In this document: positions 9,078 through 35,891 of the stretch, in pieces | Layout: every line of letters begins with the position of its first letter | Numbering within the stretch: the stretch's first letter is position 1 | Virus record (IMG/VR): IMGVR_UViG_3300031963_008639 | Location: 1-40,915 of that record | Length of the DNA: 40,915 nucleotides | Reading direction: 5' to 3' (one strand) | Origin: a virus | Translations under genes and position numbers: made by a program | Notes under the pieces: model-generated | The model's input: the letters and a program-made list of their open reading frames with translations, nothing else | What the model was told of the DNA's origin: nothing | Databases searched by the model: none

Positions 9078-10139
9078 TTAGAGAGCATTACCCCTCGGAA
9101 GAACTTCCTCAGGAAATACAAAATTTTCGTGGGGCTGGTCTACTGGTGCCATCCAAGCCCTTAACCCCTCATTCAAAAGTATGTTCTTTGTATAGAACGT
9201 CTCGAATTCCGGATCTTCTGCTGCTCTCACTTCCTGCGATACGAAATCATACGCTCGTAGGTTAAGAGCAAGACCAATAATACCAATACTACTAGTCCAG
9301 AGACCCATGACGGGAACAAAGAGCATAAAGAAGTGAAGCCAACGCTTATTACTAAAAGCAATTCCAAAAATTTGCGACCAGAAACGGTTAGCAGTAACCA
9401 TTGAATAGGTTTCTTCCTCTTGAGTCGGTTCAAATGCTTTGAATGTATTCGCTTTGTCCCCATCCTCATAAAGTGTATTCTCAACTGTTGCTCCGTGAAT
9501 CGCACAGAGAAGTGCTCCTCCCAGTATACCAGCAACTCCCATCATATGGAAGGGGTTGAGTGTCCAGTTGTGGAAACCCTGTAGGAATAGAAGGAACCTG
9601 AAGATAGCAGCAACACCAAAAGATGGTGCGAAGAACCAACTGGATTGCCCCAGAGGATACATCAGGAACACAGAAACGAATACTGCGATAGGACCAGAGA
9701 ATGCGATAGCATTGTACGGACGAATCCCTACAAGACGGGCAATCTCAAACTGCCTCAACATAAATCCTATGAGAGCAAAGGCACCGTGGAGCGCCACAAA
9801 AGTCCAGAGTCCCCCAAGTTGGAACCACCTGACGATATCCCCTTGAGCCTCAGGACCCCAAAGTAGAAGAAGAGAATGACCCATAGCATCTGCAGGCGTT
9901 GACACAGCAGCCGTAAGGAAATTAGCGCCTTCAAGGTAACTAGACGCCAACCCGTGGGTATACCAGCTTGTAACAAACGTTGTGCCAGTAAGCCAGCCAC
10001 CAAGGGCAAGATAAGCAGTGGGAAAAAGTAATAGTCCAGACCAACCCACAAATATGAAGCGATCTCGTTTAAGCCAGTCATCCAGGACATCGAACCACCC
10101 CCTTTGTGAAATTGGTTGTGAAAGAGTTGAAGAAGTCAT
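9078..10139 (-). CDS. psbD: Photosystem II reaction-centre protein D2
   Basis: Full-length D2, 353 residues from this start. D2 pairs with D1 in the PSII core and binds the redox cofactors and QA in the thylakoid membrane. Recognisable phrases include [15 protein letters not shown] near the start, [20 protein letters not shown] with the cofactor-binding His, and the C-terminus [13 protein letters not shown] prefer this ATG because it gives the usual Met-Thr D2 N-terminus; an ATG three codons earlier (10148) is equally open. The segment near residues 225-240 ([15 protein letters not shown]) is where phage and host copies commonly vary. It has its own promoter and terminator. The phage copy is expected to replenish D2 during infection. 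Confidence 0.97.
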
Positions 10140-10160
10140 AACCTCCATTATCGTTTCTCA

Positions 10161-10913: not shown

Positions 10914-11639
10914 TCAAACAAAAAATTGATTCAGACCTTCATTTAATCTTTCTTCTGTAATCTTAATGTACTTTTCGTCAATGTCAAATCCTATCCAATT
11001 CCTATTAAGATCTTTGGCAACAATCGCAGTGGTGCCAGATCCCATGAAAGGATCAAGAACTAAATCACCTTCTTGTGTAGTTAATTGGATACAATTTCTT
11101 ACCAGTTGTGGTGGAAATGGTGCTGGATGTTGTTTTTGTCTTTCGGGATTAATCACCCAAACCTCACCACGATAATCAGGATCAACAGCATCACGAAATA
11201 CTTTTGGTTTGTCCTTACATAACCAATAGATATGCTCCGTACATGGTACAAGAACATCATTGCGAATGTTTGGAGAATTGCGCCTATCCCAAATAATCAA
11301 CTGATAGAGTTCAGCATCACTATGTTGAATGAAATCTGTTGGTAGATAGCAACGATTTTTATATCTTCTTGGTTTATGATTAAAAAAGATAGATCCATCA
11401 GGTTTAATCACACGATGGCATTCATTTAAAAGTGCTATCATCCATGCCTGATATTCTTCCTCTGGCATGTCGTCACCATAGGTATTATAATCAATATTAA
11501 ATTTACCCCAGATTTGATTGCCCTGCTTCACCTTTCCAAGTAATCCTTTTTTATTATATGGAGGTGAAGTTACTATACAATCAACTGAATCTGATGCGAG
11601 TTCTTTCAGTCCCTCAATACAATCTTTTTTGATCAGCAT
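10914..11639 (-). CDS. DNA methyltransferase, beta class (N4-cytosine or N6-adenine)
   Basis: A 241-residue SAM-dependent DNA methyltransferase. Catalytic motif IV TSPPYN (residues 24-29) precedes the SAM-binding motif I DPFMGSGTT (196-204); this order defines the beta class, and TSPPY is compatible with either amino-methyl product. Typical family length, no extra target domain. It transfers a methyl group to DNA, protecting it from restriction or marking phage DNA. It is third in the operon that starts at the psbA terminator/promoter. The next gene downstream is a candidate nuclease, so a restriction-modification pair is possible; many phage enzymes of this type are orphans. Confidence 0.9.
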   Translation of the reverse strand: MLIKKDCIEGLKELASDSVDCIVTSPPYNKKGLLGKVKQGNQIWGKFNIDYNTYGDDMPEEEYQAWMIALLNECHRVIKPDGSIFFNHKPRRYKNRCYLPTDFIQHSDAELYQLIIWDRRNSPNIRNDVLVPCTEHIYWLCKDKPKVFRDAVDPDYRGEVWVINPERQKQHPAPFPPQLVRNCIQLTTQEGDLVLDPFMGSGTTAIVAKDLNRNWIGFDIDEKYIKITEERLNEGLNQFFV

Positions 11640-12248: not shown

Positions 12249-13328
12249 TCAACCGATTGCAGGTGCGGTCAGAGCAACAGGAGTTGCTTCGGCAGCTGCC
12301 AGGTCCAAAGGAAAATTATGTGCATTTCTTTCGTGCATTACCTCGAGCCCGAGTCCAGCACGGTTAAGAACATCAGCCCAAGTATTAATCACTTTGCCTT
12401 GAGAATCAACAATAGATTGGTTGAAATTAAAACCGTTGAGGTTAAATGCCATCGTGGAAACACCAAGAGCAGTGAACCAGATGCCTACAACGGGCCAGCT
12501 AGCGAGGAAGAAGTGCAGCGAACGTGAGTTATTAAAGGAAGCGTATTGGAAAATAAGGCGTCCGAAATAACCGTGAGCAGCAACGATGTTATAAGTCTCT
12601 TCTTCTTGACCGAACTTGTAACCATAGTTCTGTGACTCATTCTCGGTGGTTTCACGAACCAGCGAGGAAGTAACCAGAGAACCGTGCATAGCACTGAACA
12701 GAGAACCACCGAACACACCAGCAACTCCAAGCATATGGAAGGGGTGCATCAGGATGTTGTGCTCTGCCTGGAACACAAGCATGTAGTTGAAGGTGCCGCT
12801 GATACCCAGAGGCATCGCATCAGAGAAAGAACCTTGACCAAAAGGATAGACCAGGAACACTGCAGAAGCAGCAGCAACAGGTGCGCTGTAGGCAACACAA
12901 ATCCAAGGACGCATACCAAGACGGTAGGAGAGTTCCCATTCACGACCCATATAAGCATAGATGCCGATGAGGAAGTGGAAGACTACCAGTTGGAAAGGTC
13001 CACCGTTGTAAAGCCACTCATCTAGGGAAGCAGCTTCCCAGATGGGGTAAAAGTGCAGTCCAATAGCATTGGACGAAGGAATCACAGCACCAGAGATGAT
13101 GTTGTTTCCGTACATGAGTGAACCAGAAACGGGTTCACGGATTCCATCAATGTCCACAGGAGGAGCACCGATGAAGGCGATGATGAAACAAGTCGTAGCA
13201 GCAAGCAGGCAAGGAATCATCAGAACTCCAAACCAACCGACATAAAGACGATTATCGGTTGATGTAACCCAGTTGCAGAATTGTTCCCAAGTATTCGATT
13301 GTTGTTGACGTGAAATTGTAGCAGTCAT
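12249..13328 (-). CDS. psbA: Photosystem II reaction-centre protein D1
   Basis: Complete, uninterrupted 359-residue D1, the fast-turning-over PSII core subunit. The key residues are at their standard numbers: Tyr161 (YZ), Asp170, His190, His198 (P680), His215 and His272 (non-haem iron), Ser264 (QB), and His332, Glu333, His337, Asp342 and Ala344 of the Mn cluster and processing site. Residue 130 is Glu, the form found in high-light cyanobacterial D1. A C-terminal extension follows Ala344, as expected of precursor D1. No intron is present. It has its own strong promoter, a ~160-base structured leader and a terminator. The phage copy should sustain PSII repair during infection. Confidence 0.98.
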
Positions 13329-28705: not shown

Positions 28706-29424
28706 TCTACCTCCATTGGAGTCATCTCTCTCCATTCATCTCTTGTATACTCAATCCATTGCCAAGGTTTCTTAAGAATCCCATCATAGACTCTTTCAGA
28801 ATACTTATAGTGTCTGGGATGAATCGTAAGTCGTGTTGCTTTGAGGTCCAGTGTCTCCATCACATAATGAAGTGATGTGTCAACGGAGTGCATTTCTTCA
28901 GCATTCTCAAAAACCCAACACCAGTCAAAGACTTTACCACCAGGAATATTCGGATCCATCTCAACAACCTTCCCATCATATCCTTCTGGGATTTGCTGAT
29001 AAACTCCATTCATTGGTTTGTAGACACTATAATATGGATTGATAAAGATAAACGGATCACCTTTCTCTAATCCAAGTCTTTTACGAAGATTCTCTTCCCG
29101 TTCAAGATTACGCTCATACTTGAAATAATCTTGCCAGTCATCATAAGAGATTCCTACGGCATCATACTTTGTACCCATTACATCCCAAGATCCTCTTGAT
29201 TTGGGAACATTAGACAAATCAAGAACTCCAACCTCACCAGAAGGAAGTTGGAGTTGTCCTTGAGCACCAATATGAGAACTAGTAATCATCTGATCCACAC
29301 CAGCAGACCAGCAAGAAGGAGTGACTGGATGATAAACAGTATGCTCTTGAGATAAAACTGTTGCGATCTTCTGAATAAAGAAGATGTCTCCCAGTCCTCC
29401 TGCCTGATCAATAATGATGTTCAT
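28702..29424 (-). CDS. GT9 (heptosyltransferase)-like protein, copy 1
   Basis: 240 residues. It starts IIDQAGGLGDIFFIQKIATV, the GT9-type N-terminal loop, and carries GISYDDWQDYFKYERN and VFDWCWVFENAEEMHSVDTS, shared with copy 2. It is shorter than cellular heptosyltransferases (~320-350), so the fold is trimmed. The pair looks like a tandem duplication. The start overlaps the dehydratase stop by one base. Confidence 0.7.
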   Translation of the reverse strand: MNIIIDQAGGLGDIFFIQKIATVLSQEHTVYHPVTPSCWSAGVDQMITSSHIGAQGQLQLPSGEVGVLDLSNVPKSRGSWDVMGTKYDAVGISYDDWQDYFKYERNLEREENLRKRLGLEKGDPFIFINPYYSVYKPMNGVYQQIPEGYDGKVVEMDPNIPGGKVFDWCWVFENAEEMHSVDTSLHYVMETLDLKATRLTIHPRHYKYSERVYDGILKKPWQWIEYTRDEWREMTPMEVE

Positions 29425-30401
29425 CAGTTAATCTTGTCGTACCAATACTTGAGAAGATCATTCAGAGTCGTATCAATATCATACTCTTCCTTGAATCCAG
29501 TCAGTTCTACAAGATTAGTAGAGTCACCGTGCTGATAATAGATCTCATGAGGACGCCAGAAGGGTTCATGAATCCTTTGCTCCACATGATCCAAACCAGA
29601 CAGTTCAATCAATTTATCTGTAAAAAACTGCATCTTACGAGGAGTATCTCCACAAATATTAAAGATGTGGTTGGTAACTTCTGGGTTAATCATTGCCAGA
29701 TAATAAGCTCTTACGGTGTCACGAACATCCATCACAACACGAGTTGTGCTTAAGTTGCCAACAAGAAGAACAGGATCCTGAAGACCCTTCATCATTCTAG
29801 CAATCTGGTAAGCATCAGATGAGATAGAGAAGATCTTACCTCGGCGGGGACCAGTATGGGAGAAAGCACGAGTAATGAATCCCTTAATGAATCCATTCTG
29901 CATACGCTCCTGAAGATAAACATCAGTTGCTGCCTTTGATGCTCCATAAGGATTGGCAGGAAGAATCGTATCTTCCCAGTGAATCTTACGACCGTCTTGT
30001 CCCACATTACCATAGACTTCAGATGTAGAGCAGAACATCAACTTACAGTCTGGTTGATGATCCACAATTACTTGAATTAGATTAGCACTGCCCATCACAT
30101 TGGTTTCCATCGTACCAATGGGATCAGTAAAGCTGGATGGAGGATGTGATTGAGCAGCAAGATGAAAGACACCATCAAACTGATACTTCTCAAAGATATT
30201 TCTCAAAGAACGATAGTTACACAAATCAGCATACAAAAAAGTAATAGAGTTGTATACTTCATCAGGAACTACATCATGAATGTCAGTCTCCATCCCATTG
30301 GTACGACGAATCAATCCATAGATTTCATGACCTTCAGCATGAAGAAGATTTGCTAGGTGAGGTCCAGCAAATCCAGTGATTCCAGTAATTAAAAACTTCA
30401 T
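29424..30401 (-). CDS. GDP-mannose 4,6-dehydratase-like SDR enzyme
   Basis: 325 residues, typical family length. The NAD(P)-binding loop TGITGFAG (6-13), the catalytic SxSxxYG region CSTSEVYG (124-131) and Tyr152-xxx-Lys156 are intact. The RRTNGME segment and RAFSHTGPRRG favour the GDP-mannose dehydratase/RMD group over UDP-glucose enzymes. A dehydratase would make GDP-4-keto-6-deoxymannose; RMD would reduce it to GDP-rhamnose, and no separate fucose synthase is seen in the operon. Its product probably feeds the GT10/GT11 enzymes. Confidence 0.85.
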   Translation of the reverse strand: MKFLITGITGFAGPHLANLLHAEGHEIYGLIRRTNGMETDIHDVVPDEVYNSITFLYADLCNYRSLRNIFEKYQFDGVFHLAAQSHPPSSFTDPIGTMETNVMGSANLIQVIVDHQPDCKLMFCSTSEVYGNVGQDGRKIHWEDTILPANPYGASKAATDVYLQERMQNGFIKGFITRAFSHTGPRRGKIFSISSDAYQIARMMKGLQDPVLLVGNLSTTRVVMDVRDTVRAYYLAMINPEVTNHIFNICGDTPRKMQFFTDKLIELSGLDHVEQRIHEPFWRPHEIYYQHGDSTNLVELTGFKEEYDIDTTLNDLLKYWYDKIN

Positions 30402-31051
30402 TAATTTACAACTCCTTCAATAAGATCTTTACACACTTCAAGGTCAGCATCAACAGGGAATAGAATCAAGAATCCTTGTGCGACATACGATTCAATTATA
30501 ACATGAGTTTCGTCAAACAACTCATAGACAAAATCAATACCATCGGCCCCAGCAACTTTCCTTAAGTCCCAGTTGCCACCTTCATAGGGACCATCCTTAT
30601 AAACTCTCAAATCATCCAGAATGAATACATCTTTTGAAATATCTCTACCACTTTCTTTAATGACTCTTAATTCAGATTCAAGTGGAATTCTTTTTGTAGG
30701 GTCTTTTTCACTTGTATAGGTGGCACCATTGATATTAAAATCAGCACCTGGAAAATGAGCATCGTGCCAGAACAGAGTTGGTTCTGGTGACAGAGTTTCC
30801 AGAATAGTTTTCATCTCAACATGACTATACCCTTTGATTAGATGAAGATTAGGTGTTCCCTCAAACTTCTCTACCAATTTAGTATGAAGTTCATCCATTA
30901 ACTCAATAGTATAAACATTGAGATCATCTGGACGCACATTGAGAATATAAGAAAGACTGTCGGCAATTCCAGTGCCAGTCTCCACAAAGTTCTTAATACC
31001 AAAAGTCTCAATGACTTCTTTCGGTTTTACTGCTTGATAAATTTGTCCCAT
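30401..31051 (-). CDS. SAM methyltransferase-like protein, FkbM/TylF type
   Basis: 216 residues. FVETGTGIADSLSYIL (22-37) is a plausible SAM loop. It is followed by VYTIELMDELHTKLVEKF, HLIKGYSH and the acidic LFWHDAHFPGAD, a pattern of class I methyltransferases that act on sugars or antibiotics. The start shares a base with the upstream gap and the stop overlaps the dehydratase start by one base. Substrate unknown. Confidence 0.7.
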   Translation of the reverse strand: MGQIYQAVKPKEVIETFGIKNFVETGTGIADSLSYILNVRPDDLNVYTIELMDELHTKLVEKFEGTPNLHLIKGYSHVEMKTILETLSPEPTLFWHDAHFPGADFNINGATYTSEKDPTKRIPLESELRVIKESGRDISKDVFILDDLRVYKDGPYEGGNWDLRKVAGADGIDFVYELFDETHVIIESYVAQGFLILFPVDADLEVCKDLIEGVVN

Positions 31052-31052
31052 G

Positions 31053-31856
31053 TTAATTAAAGTAATTAAGGTAAATAAAGTCTTCTAAAACTTCCATCTC
31101 TTTTGCTTTTTCCAGATTTTCTTGAATGGCATCCATTTTAGAATAGTAAATGTCTTCAGATACATCGAATTCATCTGTCAAATCAATTATACCATCTTTA
31201 TTGAAATACTTTCCAATATCTGGTGCTCCAAGATAAACAGGAATGGTTCCTGTGGCAAAGCAATCTAAAAGTTTTTCTGTAAAGTAAGTCTCATATTGAC
31301 CATTCTCAATCGCAACCGAGAACATGTAATCACAAAGACCTTCTTCCTTTAAGGCGATTTCATTAAATCCACGACCATAAAGATCAACCTGATCTCCAAT
31401 TCTTTCAACCCACTGAAGGCGAAGTCTATGCCCTTCACACATTCTTTTGTTTGAGGCAATCATAGAAATCATCTTTGATTTCTCATAGATCTTTGGTTCC
31501 TTGATCCAGAATCCTTGAGCAGGACACCACTTAAACTTTGGATCAATTTTTAAAAGTTCTTGATTATGTGTGAAGATGGCATCAAATGTTTCCAAATATT
31601 TTTCTGGAAACATTTTGACTTGATCTACAATTTGTGGAGTGATGTATTTTGATTCCAATAACCAGGCATATTTTGGTCCTTTTGGAGCATCATCCATCCA
31701 GGCATAAGGGAGAGTGCTGTCAATATAAAAAGAGCACTCTCCTCCCTCTTTGACCCATTCAATATACTTTGACTCTTTACCATGAACGGAATATCCTTTG
31801 TTTCCATTTGTAAGATGAGTAAAAGTATCTCCGATTAAATTAAACTTTCTTCGCAT
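31053..31856 (-). CDS. GT10 alpha-1,3-fucosyltransferase-like
   Basis: 267 residues from Met at 31856; the frame is open further upstream but that part overlaps the epimerase. The GT10 C-terminal donor domain is clear: FSVAIENGQYETYFTEKLLD, then CFATGTIPVYLGAP and YFNKDGIIDL. The N-terminal half contains LPYAWMDDAPKGPKYAWLLE. The family transfers L-fucose from GDP-fucose in alpha-1,3/4 linkage. It is second in the operon, right after an epimerase that should supply GDP-L-galactose. Confidence 0.85.
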   Translation of the reverse strand: MRRKFNLIGDTFTHLTNGNKGYSVHGKESKYIEWVKEGGECSFYIDSTLPYAWMDDAPKGPKYAWLLESKYITPQIVDQVKMFPEKYLETFDAIFTHNQELLKIDPKFKWCPAQGFWIKEPKIYEKSKMISMIASNKRMCEGHRLRLQWVERIGDQVDLYGRGFNEIALKEEGLCDYMFSVAIENGQYETYFTEKLLDCFATGTIPVYLGAPDIGKYFNKDGIIDLTDEFDVSEDIYYSKMDAIQENLEKAKEMEVLEDFIYLNYFN

Positions 31857-32880
31857 TGATTTGCTCACTAATCCATGAATAAGTCTTACGAATACCTTCT
31901 TCAAGAGATTGAGAGTAATCCCAACCAAGTTCTCTACGGATCACATCGTTATTTGAGTTACGACCACGAACGCCTAGAGGACCAGGAATATGATTCTTCT
32001 CAACGGTTTTACCAGAAACTTTAGCGGCAGTATCAACCAGTTGATCAATCGTCACCATCTCTTCAGACCCAATATTTACAGGACCAATAAAGTTAGAATC
32101 CATCATACGGCGAGTTGCTTCAATACACTCATCAATATAAAGGAATGAACGAGTTTGTTTTCCGTCACCCCAGACATCAATGGTGCCGCCGTCTTCTGGA
32201 AGATATGCTACTTTACGGCAGATTGCTGCTGGTGCTTTTTCTCTTCCACCGTCCCAAGTTCCTTCTGGTCCAAAGATATTATGATACCTAGCAACCCGAA
32301 CAGGGATCCCGTAATTACGATGATAAGCGAAAAAAAGTCGCTCTGAAAAAAGTTTCTCCCAACCATATTCCGAATCTGGGTTAGCAGGATAGGCGGATTC
32401 TTCACGGCAGTCAGGATTGTCAGGATCGAGTTGATTGTGCTCTGGATACATACATGCCGATCCAGAATAGAAAATCTTGGTGCTATTCTTACCCAGACGC
32501 TCATTCATCTGGTGTTGCATTTCCAAAACATTCAAGTTAATTGTTGCCGAATTGTGCATGATGTCGGCATCATTATCACCAGTGAATACAAATCCTGCAC
32601 CACCCATGTCAGCAGCAAATTGATAGATCTCATCAAATGCCTGAATATAACGATAAGGAACTGAATTATAAAAATTACCTCTATCTCCTTTGTACTCAAG
32701 AACACGACGAACAAAATCTACATCACGAAGATCCCCAAGAACAAATTCATTCGCTTCGTGTTCTGAATATTCTGGATACTTAAGGTCTACACCACGAACC
32801 CAATATCCTTCGGAACGCAGTCTGCGAACCATATGACTTCCAATGAAACCACCAGCACCTAGCACCAGTGCTTTCTTCAT
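31840..32880 (-). CDS. GDP-mannose 3,5-epimerase
   Basis: 346 residues, very close to plant GME. Diagnostic phrases are AADMGGAGFV, SACMYPE, YPANPDSEYGWEKL, GREKAPAAICRK, GDGKQTRSF and GPLGVRGRNSNN. The catalytic residues are Cys143, Tyr172 and Lys176, matching plant Cys145/Tyr174/Lys178. It converts GDP-D-mannose to GDP-L-galactose (and GDP-L-gulose). The first ATG of the frame (32976) lies upstream of the terminator/promoter; the ATG at 32880 is the sensible start (32892 possible). First gene of the 17-gene sugar operon. Phage GME is uncommon to my knowledge; GDP-fucose synthase is excluded by the motifs. Confidence 0.92.
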   Translation of the reverse strand: MKKALVLGAGGFIGSHMVRRLRSEGYWVRGVDLKYPEYSEHEANEFVLGDLRDVDFVRRVLEYKGDRGNFYNSVPYRYIQAFDEIYQFAADMGGAGFVFTGDNDADIMHNSATINLNVLEMQHQMNERLGKNSTKIFYSGSACMYPEHNQLDPDNPDCREESAYPANPDSEYGWEKLFSERLFFAYHRNYGIPVRVARYHNIFGPEGTWDGGREKAPAAICRKVAYLPEDGGTIDVWGDGKQTRSFLYIDECIEATRRMMDSNFIGPVNIGSEEMVTIDQLVDTAAKVSGKTVEKNHIPGPLGVRGRNSNNDVIRRELGWDYSQSLEEGIRKTYSWISEQINAKKV

Positions 32881-32916
32881 ATACTGACTCATAAAATCAT
32901 AAACTCTATAGTATGT

Positions 32917-32945
32917 ATTATACAAAAAAAGAGGGGTCTTGTAAA
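32917..32945 (-). promoter_or_regulatory. Promoter embedded in a terminator, driving the 17-gene sugar operon
   Basis: Minus strand TTTACA (32940-32945) overlaps the hairpin loop and 3' stem. The 17-base spacer is the stem arm and T-tract, then a perfect TATAAT (32917-32922). The GME ATG follows about 37 bases later. Confidence 0.75.
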
Positions 32946-32952
32946 CCCCTCT
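32924..32952 (-). terminator. Terminator upstream of the sugar operon
   Basis: Stem AGAGGGGT/ACCCCTCT (32930-32937 with 32945-32952), loop CTTGTAA, then seven T on the minus strand. It ends transcripts coming from the 33078-33819 genes. Confidence 0.88.
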
Positions 32953-33077
32953 CGTTAAGCTCAGGCTCGCCACCAATTCTTTGACTGGAAATTGGAAACC
33001 AGGCGGGAGAGAGTCCCATCCGCACCAGGGTTGTTAGCGTGTCTCCATCACGGGCATAAGGGGATTGACTCCACCAC

Positions 33078-33337: not shown

Positions 33338-33604
33338 TTAAAGACTCTCCGTGTCTTCTTCATCGTCCTTCACATAAGCAGGCACCATATCGGGGTCTAA
33401 CCAGCAGGTATAGTCGTGGTCTTCCATAGCAGTAATGAGTTGCATCTCATTATCGCAAAGGTACATATCACGATAACGCCCAGTATATGCGTCTACTTTT
33501 TGAATACGGCAATCAGGTTTGCCGTTGATTTCAAGAGTGCCGACTTGAACATACCGATAAGGAAAACGCTCAAGCAGAACAGTAGGTTTCCTAACGACTT
33601 TCAT
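33338..33604 (-). CDS. Unknown protein, 88 aa
   Basis: It starts MKVVRKPTVLLERFPYRYV and ends in an acidic stretch (VKDDEEDTESL). No motif is recognised. The ATG at 33604 overlaps the upstream stop by one base, with GAGG seven bases before it, so this start is preferred over a TTG one codon earlier. Coupled to the 71-aa gene. Confidence 0.6.
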   Translation of the reverse strand: MKVVRKPTVLLERFPYRYVQVGTLEINGKPDCRIQKVDAYTGRYRDMYLCDNEMQLITAMEDHDYTCWLDPDMVPAYVKDDEEDTESL

Positions 33605-33819
33605 CAACCAACCTCAACAGACTGAAGATCTTGGTCAATATACTCCATAAGCATTTCGTAGTCGTCAAGGGGGTCACCAGAAAATACGACGCCCTCATTT
33701 TCGTAGAAGCGACGGACCTTTTTATAAAGTTTCGGATTCTTTACATCAAGGTAGATTTCCCCGTTAGCAGCAAGTTGAAGAGTGCTAACATCCTTTTTGA
33801 ACTTTTGAATCAGAGACAT
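33604..33819 (-). CDS. Unknown protein, 71 aa
   Basis: Charged, probably alpha/beta protein (LQLAANGEIYLDVKNPKLYK, then acidic DDYEMLMEYIDQDL). No family recognised. It is the first gene after a very good promoter and is coupled to the 88-aa gene. Confidence 0.6.
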   Translation of the reverse strand: MSLIQKFKKDVSTLQLAANGEIYLDVKNPKLYKKVRRFYENEGVVFSGDPLDDYEMLMEYIDQDLQSVEVG

Positions 33820-33870: not shown

Positions 33871-33895
33871 GTGTGCCAGTCAGGAAACTGGCGAG

Positions 33896-33971
33896 TCCGG
33901 ATATTCAGATTTGAACTGAAATTATTCCTGCTCCCAAAGCAGGTGCCATGACCAAGTTAGGCGATATCCGG
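33896..33971 (-). tRNA. tRNA-Pro (anticodon UGG)
   Basis: A full cloverleaf: acceptor CCGGATA/TATCCGG, D stem GCC/GGC, anticodon stem CCTGC/GCAGG with loop TTTGGGA, T arm TTCAG-TTCAAAT-CTGAA, discriminator A. CCA is not encoded. It lies between the tiny-gene operon and the 33842 promoter. Confidence 0.93.
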
Positions 33972-34011
33972 TTGCGTTGAGTGGTTTTGCCTCCCAACAG
34001 AACTAATTATA

Positions 34012-34164
34012 CTACTTCTTGTGCCCCTTGTCAAATGGAGCCCAGTGCTGCCAGTTGTATTTGTGGACTGCCCACATACCCATAATGGGCACAACAATCA
34101 AGGCATAACACATAATGCCTAATACTACTTGATTGTTAAGTGCTGCTGCTGCGAAGTGTCCCAT
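34012..34164 (-). CDS. Tiny membrane protein, 50 aa
   Basis: MGHFAAAALNNQVVLGIMCY, then one hydrophobic helix (~13-33) and a His/Trp/Lys-rich tail (WAVHKYNWQHWAP). The ATG shares a base with the stop of the 24-aa gene (TAATG). Last gene of the tiny-gene operon. Function unknown. Confidence 0.6.
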   Translation of the reverse strand: MGHFAAAALNNQVVLGIMCYALIVVPIMGMWAVHKYNWQHWAPFDKGHKK

Positions 34165-34238
34165 TAGATTATAGACATAAAGAACAAGAAAAACCCAAAT
34201 GCTATAAAGAACCCAAGAATTAAGAATTGTGATCCCAT
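34164..34238 (-). CDS. 24-aa transmembrane peptide
   Basis: The peptide is MGSQFLILGFFIAFG followed by FFLFFMSII: a single helix with no charged residue. It is supported as a gene mainly by its position: it starts 1 base after the stop of one gene and its stop overlaps the next ATG. It could instead be a coupling leader for the 50-aa gene. Confidence 0.5.
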   Translation of the reverse strand: MGSQFLILGFFIAFGFFLFFMSII

Positions 34239-34239
34239 A

Positions 34240-34446
34240 TCAATTCCATTCCTCATAGTATCTTCTAAAATATGAATCAACCTTTTTTAGGTCATCCAAA
34301 TGAATATCACAGGTGTAATTATTATCATCACACCATTGTAGTGCCATCCAATGAAAATTTTCTTCTCTCATCACTCTCTCAATGCCATAACTTCTGGCAA
34401 AGGAAGACATAACAAAATTCCAACACTGACTAGTGTGCTGTTCCAT
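34240..34446 (-). CDS. Small soluble protein, 68 aa
   Basis: From Met at 34446, which has AAGGGA just before it. The sequence MEQHTSQCWNFVMSSFARSY continues to a charged tail (LKKVDSYFRRYYEEWN). Helical, Trp/Cys-containing, no membrane segment, the only clearly soluble member of this run besides the first gene. The frame opens earlier (34509) but that part overlaps the preceding gene. Function unknown. Confidence 0.55.
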   Translation of the reverse strand: MEQHTSQCWNFVMSSFARSYGIERVMREENFHWMALQWCDDNNYTCDIHLDDLKKVDSYFRRYYEEWN

Positions 34447-34561
34447 TTCCCTTATAGTCGTCACTATCGTAATAACTTCCTTTCTTTGACCCAACATAAA
34501 GAGTAGCAACCACGAATGGAATTGCTAATACAATCAAAAATCTACCAAGCAAATGTGCCAT
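34430..34561 (-). CDS. Tiny membrane protein, 43 aa
   Basis: MAHLLGRFLIVLAIPFVVA gives an N-terminal helix, then a polar tail SKKGSYYDSDDYKGNG. The ATG shares a base with the upstream stop (TAATG). Function unknown. Confidence 0.55.
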   Translation of the reverse strand: MAHLLGRFLIVLAIPFVVATLYVGSKKGSYYDSDDYKGNGTAH

Positions 34562-34686
34562 TACATTCCTCCTCCGTTTTTAAATCCAATTAAGTAACCA
34601 ATAATAAGTCCACACATAAATGCCACAAACATATAGAGCATATGTGAAAAGAAGTCAATAAAGATAAACCATTCTTCAGTCGTCAT
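34561..34686 (-). CDS. Tiny membrane protein, 41 aa
   Basis: It starts MTTEEWFIFIDFFSHMLYMF, with one hydrophobic helix to residue ~34 and the tail FKNGGGM. Upstream GGAGGA coding for the Gly run doubles as a Shine-Dalgarno for the next gene. It overlaps the preceding gene by 11 bases. Function unknown. Confidence 0.55.
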   Translation of the reverse strand: MTTEEWFIFIDFFSHMLYMFVAFMCGLIIGYLIGFKNGGGM

Positions 34687-34861
34687 TTTCTTTCATTAAC
34701 TCCTCTATACGCCTTCTCATATCAGTCATTTTTTTATTCTCACGCTCACAATGGCGATAACCACGCTGCCCCCTGAATATCATTGTGCCTTGATAAAACA
34801 TTGTGGCAGCAAAAACCAATAGTAGGACTATGCCTATTATTTCAGGGTAATGTTGAGCCAT
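34676..34861 (-). CDS. Small membrane protein with charged helical tail, 61 aa
   Basis: N-terminal transmembrane helix (IIGIVLLLVFAATMFYQGTM, residues ~8-27), then a strongly charged coiled-coil-like tail (ERENKKMTDMRRRIEELMKE). This anchor-plus-coil design resembles inner-membrane scaffolds or spanin-like proteins, without further proof. It overlaps the upstream gene by 25 bases. Confidence 0.6.
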   Translation of the reverse strand: MAQHYPEIIGIVLLLVFAATMFYQGTMIFRGQRGYRHCERENKKMTDMRRRIEELMKENDD

Positions 34862-35043
34862 GGCAGTAATGGTGGAATGACGCCTATGAGTCTTAAAAGT
34901 CCTTCAGCAAATAAAGCAAGAACCACCCAACCGACGCACATACTAATGATACTAGCATTACGGTTGTGTCGTCGTATTGCTGCATCTATCATCTCCTTTA
35001 CTTCACTGCGAGTTACATAATCGTCATCAAAGGGTTCCATCAT
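34837..35043 (-). CDS. Small membrane protein, 68 aa
   Basis: An acidic/basic amphipathic N-terminus (FDDDYVTRSEVKEMIDAAIR) then one or two hydrophobic segments (SIISMCVGWVVLALFAEGLL, RLIGVIPPLLPWL). Start fixed by an ATGA overlap with the upstream stop. Function unknown. Confidence 0.62.
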   Translation of the reverse strand: MMEPFDDDYVTRSEVKEMIDAAIRRHNRNASIISMCVGWVVLALFAEGLLRLIGVIPPLLPWLNITLK

Positions 35044-35189
35044 TTCTCGTCTCCAAGAAACTTTGCCAGAGGGTCTCTTCTGGTCTTTACGATTTCAACT
35101 GCTCTCTTATAGAACATATTATCCATGTTCCCAGAGGCTTCAAAAGTCTCCTTGATCTTCACCCAGTTCTCGTAGGTGTGCTGATCCAT
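35040..35189 (-). CDS. Small soluble protein, 49 aa, first gene of the tiny-gene operon
   Basis: It starts MDQHTYENWVKIKETFEASG and ends RRDPLAKFLGDEK; charged and helical, no membrane segment. Its stop and the next ATG overlap as ATGA. It follows a plausible promoter by ~27 bases. Confidence 0.58.
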   Translation of the reverse strand: MDQHTYENWVKIKETFEASGNMDNMFYKRAVEIVKTRRDPLAKFLGDEK

Positions 35190-35215
35190 AGGGTTACGGT
35201 TGAATACTACTAGTT

Positions 35216-35243
35216 ATGCTAGTCGGTAGTTTCAACTTGTCAA
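35216..35243 (-). promoter_or_regulatory. Probable promoter of the tiny-gene operon
   Basis: Minus strand TTGACA (35238-35243, perfect), 16 bases, TAGCAT (35216-35221, 4 of 6). It lies between the tRNA-Ser and the 49-aa gene. Confidence 0.5.
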
Positions 35244-35296
35244 GTTTGTTAGGGTTTGATGATAGTGTTTAAGGAAATGTTAAATCTTAAATAAAA

Positions 35297-35381
35297 CGGA
35301 GAGAGTAGGATTCGAACCAACGGAAGCTTTCACTTCGGCAGTTTTCAAGACTGCTGCCTTAAACCACTCGGCCATCTCTCC
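35297..35381 (-). tRNA. tRNA-Ser (anticodon UGA)
   Basis: Class II tRNA of 85 bases: acceptor GGAGAGA/TCTCTCC, anticodon stem GCAGT/ACTGC with loop CTTGAAA, a long variable arm (AAGTGAAAGCTTC region) and T arm with GGTTCGAATCC. No encoded CCA. Confidence 0.95.
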
Positions 35382-35408
35382 AATAAGAACATTATAATAC
35401 AAAATGAA

Positions 35409-35891
35409 TCAAATGTCAACTACACAATCTTTTTTTACATCTATAAAAAGAAACTTCATCGGAGCATCAGAAAGATTTGCCCCTTCGTGTATATAGTCCA
35501 TCACTTCATAGACCTTTGGAACTCCTTCTTCCCAAAAGACCTTTTCACCCTGCCAAATCATATAACACTTTTCTCTATCAGGTATCTCCAAAGGAATCTG
35601 AATTCTCTTATAAGGTTCCCGATAAATGTTTGGGTCTCTATGAGGTTTTAAAATTGTTCCCGAATCAAAAGAAGAATATCCCGAATAAAGAATATCAGTA
35701 TTTTGATGAACCTTTACAACTTCATCCGTCATCAATTTTTTTCTAATCGTTACTGCCTTACCAACACCCTTCAACCAATAGTGGTGAATATCAGTATTAC
35801 AGTATCCTTCTGTCGTTGGTGCTTTTTTAGTTGGAAATTCAGTTTGTTTTGCCCATTCATAAAGAGATTGTAACTCAACTTTAGTGATCAT
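35409..35891 (-). CDS. 2OG-Fe(II) oxygenase, aspartyl/asparaginyl beta-hydroxylase-like
   Basis: 160 residues. Iron ligands of the double-stranded beta-helix are visible as His84-x-Asp86 (LKPHRDPNIY) and His135 (DYIHEGANLSDAP). KRIQIPLEI and WQGEKVFWEEG before it match the Asp/Asn hydroxylase pattern. Such enzymes hydroxylate protein side chains or small molecules using 2-oxoglutarate, which accumulates in cyanobacteria under nitrogen limitation. It is transcribed divergently from the plus-strand cassette with a 59-base gap. Substrate unknown; the virion fibre is one speculative option. Confidence 0.82.
   Translation of the reverse strand: MITKVELQSLYEWAKQTEFPTKKAPTTEGYCNTDIHHYWLKGVGKAVTIRKKLMTDEVVKVHQNTDILYSGYSSFDSGTILKPHRDPNIYREPYKRIQIPLEIPDREKCYMIWQGEKVFWEEGVPKVYEVMDYIHEGANLSDAPMKFLFIDVKKDCVVDI

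Follow-up and report, generated by a model that had tools for sequence, protein, structure and literature searches.

A conserved chain of eight small genes with an NdhP-like member in a T4-like cyanophage: a candidate operon acting on host electron transport

The locus examined in the present study raises two questions: whether eight very short reading frames packed end to end between two tRNA genes of a virus are genes, and on which part of the infected cell their products may act. The window, i.e., the whole stretch of DNA that was analyzed, is a 40.9-kb virus record from a T4-like cyanophage. Over this stretch, its nearest annotated relatives are the Synechococcus phages S-SRM01, S-SKS1, and DSL-LC03; the sources of S-SRM01 and DSL-LC03 are a reservoir and a lake. 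An earlier note on this DNA, which was made from the letters alone, described frames of 49, 68, 61, 41, 43, 68, 24, and 50 residues, and their positions, lengths, and linkage were all correct, on the minus strand. The placement of the chain between tRNA-Ser and tRNA-Pro was also accurate, as shown by the features below.

35296-35382: tRNA-Ser, upstream of the chain
35216..35243, minus strand: sigma-70-like promoter TTGACA-16-TAGCAT of the chain, conserved
35040..35189, minus strand: s1, 49 aa, soluble; opens the chain; new family
34837..35043, minus strand: s2, 68 aa, one membrane helix, PHROG 1096
34676..34861, minus strand: s3, 61 aa, one membrane helix and a charged coil, PHROG 1953
34561..34686, minus strand: s4, 41 aa, one membrane helix, new family
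34430..34561, minus strand: s5, 43 aa, NdhP-like small subunit of NDH-1, PHROG 2173
34240..34446, minus strand: s6, 68 aa, soluble, predicted to be all-helical, PHROG 593
34164..34238, minus strand: s7, 24 aa, a single uncharged membrane helix, new family
34012..34164, minus strand: s8, 50 aa, one membrane helix, conserved C-terminal AVHKYNWQHWAPFDKGHKK, PHROG 1184
34006..34034, minus strand: perfect TTGACA-17-TATAAT promoter inside the 3' end (last codons) of s8
33895-33971: tRNA-Pro, downstream of the chain
12249-13328, minus strand: psbA
10914-11639: DNA methyltransferase gene, between psbD and psbA
9078-10148, minus strand: psbD

The maximum Kyte-Doolittle hydropathy over 19 residues exceeded 1.6 in six of the eight proteins and in 99-100% of the members of their families, which bears out the six single-helix members noted previously. 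The maxima of s1 and s6 were not above 1.6, and we regard these two proteins as soluble. The 24-residue uncharged helix of the earlier description is s7, and the anchor with a charged coil is s3. The chain genes abut or overlap in this window, which leaves no space for inserted genes, and zwf, gnd, petE, and PTOX were all absent from the inside of the chain. Elsewhere, the window carries a sugar-nucleotide/glycosyltransferase cluster. GDP-mannose dehydratase/epimerase genes occupy 29424-32976 (minus strand) together with a family 10 (fucosyltransferase-like) glycosyltransferase (31053-31928); these genes possibly form a phage-encoded fucosylation module.

Homologs were gathered from 220 loci in IMG/VR and annotated phages. 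These loci were found via similarity to s2, s6, and s8, and the frequencies given here describe those relatives, not cyanophages at large. Homologs of s4 and s7 were traced via neighboring chain genes. Loci were counted as distinct if their chain coding sequences differed, and such loci are only partly independent. Median dN/dS was 0.06, 0.13, 0.21, and 0.14 for s1 to s4 and 0.14, 0.35, 0.22, and 0.17 for s5 to s8, with 151 loci contributing for s1, 78 for s4, and 54 (27 distinct coding sequences) for s7. The frame was open in 74% of aligned relatives for s3 and in 96-100% for the other seven, the value for s7 being based on 13 usable relatives only. Third codon positions took 56-75% of substitutions in the eight frames. 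None of the decoy frames in the same DNA was both open and third-position-biased: in the sole open decoy (34893-34985), position 2 accounted for 59% of the changes, and the decoy whose excess at third positions was largest was open in only 38% of relatives. We concluded that all eight frames are genes under purifying selection. Selection appears to act even on the 24-residue s7 because the open-frame, third-position, and decoy comparisons favor the chain frames. The medians of 0.06-0.35, the third-position excess, and the absence of a matching decoy answer the coding-potential and dN/dS check proposed in the earlier note. Phage records numbered 267 for s2, which is the most conserved membrane member, 130 for s3, at least 375 for s5, and 296 for s8, with psbA present in 512 for scale. 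Eleven phage records contained s1, which is unannotated in S-SRM01, and only one annotated record contained s4. S-SRM01 and DSL-LC03 both have s1 as well as s2. Gene callers overlook some of these families.

The arrangement of the chain was also conserved. At least two chain families were present in 146 of 162 distinct loci; all 146 carried them on a single strand, and 133 had the order of the window. Overlaps between neighbors were nearly fixed: 4 or 1 bases for s1/s2 (95 of 106 distinct loci), 25 bases for s2/s3 (65/68), 11 bases for s3/s4 (10 of 13 adjacent pairs), 1 base for s4/s5 (19/19 adjacent pairs), 17 bases for s5/s6 (45 of 46 adjacent pairs), and 1 base for s7/s8 (23/25). This repetition of order and overlap across many distinct virus loci answers the call for a synteny and conservation check. 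tRNA-Ser was located upstream of the chain in 64 of the 95 distinct loci with enough sequence, and tRNA-Pro was downstream in 50 of 76. Two conserved small soluble genes, n71 and n89, follow tRNA-Pro (33604-33819 and 33338-33607, minus strand); they belong to PHROGs 552 and 481 (unknown function), have dN/dS of 0.11 and 0.14, and often accompany the chain in relatives. An aspartyl/asparaginyl beta-hydroxylase-like gene (35409-35891, minus strand) lies directly upstream of tRNA-Ser. A long variant of s3 (approximately 95-103 aa; loci L117, L042, L204, L058, and L028) has an added acidic tail with EEPSTYEDE, and this tail is similar to a small gene that stands on its own close to PTOX/petE in WH25-B and S-RIM4.

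The TTGACA promoter previously proposed ahead of the chain was present and conserved. Among 97 distinct regions upstream of s1, 90 had a site scoring at least 9/12 versus 23% of shuffles, and a TTGACA-16-TAnnnT site ended approximately 24-28 bases upstream of s1 in most relatives. No T4-type late-promoter motif was detected near the chain, and the count of this motif was at the level of chance. We propose that the chain is a single operon of a T4-like cyanophage transcribed from this conserved host-type promoter, and, judging from the promoter type, that it may be expressed early. The dyad ACTAGCATAACTAGT (35204-35223, minus strand) overlaps the -10 element ahead of s1, as does a dyad, ACTAGYATAACTAGT, in many upstream regions of relatives. 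A conserved dyad at this position suggests that an operator lies here or that the promoter belongs to a special class. The second promoter, which is embedded in s8, presumably drives tRNA-Pro, and scored at least 11/12 in 61 of 76 distinct loci. When up to one mismatch is allowed, TTGACA-17-TATAAT occurs at 12 sites in the window versus 0.6 expected, and every one is on the minus strand.

Among the eight proteins, s5 is the one for which a function may be proposed. A profile of 17 phage s5 sequences matched NdhP in the PDB (6khi_P, E 5.8e-11; 6hum_P, E 1.6e-9), and s5 of the window alone matched NdhP at E 7.8e-5, with a common C-terminal Y-D-x-D-x-Y-x-G-N-G-x-A-H. The hydropathy maximum of s5 was 2.19, from residue 5, and its AlphaFold model consists of a helix at residues 2-30 followed by a tail; Foldseek gave no match with this model, as expected of one helix. 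The homology to NdhP extends over the helix and the C-terminal tail of a protein of approximately 40-45 residues with one transmembrane helix. On sequence grounds, s5 belongs to the NdhP family, a small membrane subunit of cyanobacterial NDH-1L that is specific to oxygenic photosynthesis. In a small set of 14 control genomes, Synechococcus elongatus was the sole match to PHROG 2173 at 1e-5. The annotations seen reflect neither this identity, nor the number of phage records with s5, nor its place in the chain; PHROG 2173 is labeled as unknown function and P-SSM2 lists its member as a hypothetical protein (T4-GC 248); the label of PHROG 2173 should read NdhP-like. The earlier note assigned no function to any frame, which may now be improved for s5, while the other seven families are without a relative of known function.

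Searches with these seven families gave no match among solved structures (PDB), Pfam, and NCBIfam. No NCBIfam family was near the cut-off for any of the chain proteins, and s1 had no Pfam or NCBIfam family. The PHROGs of s2, s3, s5, s6, and s8 are all labeled as unknown function; s1, s4, and s7 are without a PHROG, with no PHROG match below E 0.29 for s4. We considered s2, s3, s4, s7, and s8 as NdhQ, NdhL, or small subunits of PSI, PSII, or b6f, and rejected these assignments (no PDB chain to E 10, no Pfam). The families of s2, s3, and s8 were absent from Synechococcus elongatus and the 13 other control genomes. A host origin of s2 was also rejected: genome contigs gave just two matches, both MAG contigs named as non-cyanobacteria. 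These s2 homologs are in L221 and L222, which were assigned to Rhodopirellula and Euryarchaeota MAGs and are probably misbinned phage contigs. Candidate relatives of s6 (Dmd, Cas2, and GhoS [yjdK]) were discarded; their E values were weak (0.18, 0.52, and 0.82) and the AlphaFold model of s6 (pLDDT 84.9) is all-helical. No fold matched this model.

As the phage is lytic and five of its small single-helix proteins have no known function, these may control lysis timing or superinfection exclusion, in the manner of holin/antiholin or Imm/Sp-like proteins, and s1 had a sub-threshold Holin_LLH score (E 0.14). However, s1 does not have a membrane helix, none of the chain proteins fell into a holin, endolysin, or exclusion family, and NdhP and the metabolic neighbors described below do not fit this role, which we consider very unlikely. 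The membrane-remodeling complex suggested in the earlier note fared no better, as nothing indicated membrane remodeling or lysis.

The neighborhood of the chain in relatives is informative for its role. Inserted genes were clustered by blastp at 1e-6, and representatives of gnd, talC, psbD, and PTOX were checked against families. In 25 distinct loci, gnd interrupts the chain on the strand of the chain genes, and in 24 of these, it lies in the interval upstream of s5. Twelve distinct loci have a talC-like aldolase/transaldolase inserted on that strand and 6 have PTOX, while zwf, petE, and psbD were each inserted within the chain in a single case. The psbD gene (L119:3794-4861) falls in the chain after the s5 position and before that of s7. 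In S-RIM4, the order is petE-petF-...-s2-s3-...-s5-s6-s7-s8, with petE and petF at the upstream end, and in WH25-B, it is petE, two small genes, PTOX, s2, s3, gnd, s5, zwf, and s8. In S-WAM2, petE, gnd, s5, and s8 are between the terminase genes gp16 and gp17, and s2 and s3 are apart, downstream of gp23. This position between terminase genes, which part of the chain has in several marine cyanophages, and that of a chain part ahead of gp17 in S-RIM4 and Syn33, would suit minor virion or assembly factors. However, in the window and in many retrieved relatives, the chain adjoins tRNAs and n71/n89, not structural genes, and six of its members are membrane peptides; we regard a virion or assembly role as extremely unlikely.

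The chains of relatives are often broken by enzyme genes or are without some members. Therefore, a strict complex of all eight proteins in fixed stoichiometry is unlikely. The matched production of small subunits proposed in the earlier note holds in part: s5 is in the family of a known small subunit, whereas the seven others are not tied to one complex. The same gain and loss of members between loci may indicate that s5 alone is bioenergetic and that the rest are unrelated host-takeover genes, which share a promoter and a hotspot beside tRNAs. The seven families without homology to known proteins are consistent with this explanation. In addition, PMC2984593 and PMC3037559 describe a hypervariable hotspot in this region, of which the gp16-gp17 stretch of S-WAM2 is part, and the neighborhood may reflect recombination in this known insertion hotspot rather than a shared function. 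However, order and overlaps were more rigid than random assortment predicts, and the identifiable inserted enzymes were mostly redox, photosynthesis, or pentose-phosphate genes. We consider such an unrelated assortment to be possible, but not probable.

We slightly favor, as a reading that is just on the probable side, that the chain is a membrane-microprotein operon acting on host electron transport, with its NdhP favoring NDH-1L. The presence of psbA and psbD elsewhere in the window is supporting context; that only one of the eight families has a relative of known function counts against a shared role. The operon would supply eight products, six of them membrane microproteins with a single helix and two of them small and soluble. 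According to PMC4131877, NdhP is exclusive to NDH-1L, is essential for its stability, and was undetected in the CO2-uptake forms; PMC6992706 describes its contacts with NdhD and NdhF. Phage NdhP may insert into host NDH-1 and favor or stabilize NDH-1L, the form that serves cyclic electron flow and respiration, and thereby supply ATP. That supplied phage NdhP would favor NDH-1L over the CO2-uptake forms is fairly probable in our judgment; as far as its sequence shows, it may also poison rather than support NDH-1L. Pentose-phosphate enzymes, where present, would provide NADPH. Transcriptomics of infected cells in PMC5082946 favors cyclic photophosphorylation with NADPH from the pentose-phosphate pathway. 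Based on co-localization only, s2, s3, s4, s7, and s8 might also be located in the photosynthetic membrane, where they would adjust electron-transport complexes, and s1 and s6 might be their soluble partners; we infer these roles with less confidence than that of NdhP. A more specific version, in which NdhP and four or five new single-helix peptides dock on NDH-1L and neighboring thylakoid complexes and switch them to cyclic flow, is doubtful. If true, it would represent a viral microprotein toolkit that rewires photosynthesis without carrying enzymes.

Electron and ATP flow in infected cells with carbon fixation shut down is presented as an open question in PMC5082946. An NdhP-like subunit that occurs in at least 375 phage records and lies in a conserved operon offers a direct test of NDH-1L assembly and cyclic flow on infection. 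Moreover, eight small phage families, three of which are without a PHROG, gain a concrete hypothesis from their neighborhood.

Two parts of this picture are already known, namely, viral ndhP in metagenomes and the enzyme cassette of cyanophages. Viral NdhP is not new because ndhP in cyanophages was previously reported from metagenomes, as cited in PMC10452541 and PMC3877843. Our finding resembles those metagenomic viral NDH-1 genes (ndhI, ndhD, and ndhP) in the presence of ndhP in cyanophages, and differs in the microprotein chain, on which the citing passages are silent. We found no description of a fixed microprotein chain with 24- and 41-residue members. Compared with the NdhP proteins of known structure (6khi_P and 6hum_P), s5 is similar in length (43 versus 44 aa), in its single helix, and in ending with GNG-x-AH; in contrast, it is encoded by a phage, its helix is divergent, and its YD motif is preceded by one additional residue. 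The cyanophage cassette for carbon metabolism and electron transport is listed in PMC3037559 (Sullivan 2010, citing Millard 2009) as zwf, gnd, petE, PTOX, T4-GC119, and an endonuclease. In isolates, the small-gene families of the chain flank or separate gnd, zwf, PTOX, petE, and petF. In contrast, the chain of the window is enzyme-free and stands alone, with tRNA-Ser and tRNA-Pro on either side, and includes three members without a PHROG (s1, s4, and s7). Since relatives hold cassette enzymes between or beside chain members, we concluded that the chain forms the microprotein backbone of this known cassette, with the enzymes missing from the chain in the window.
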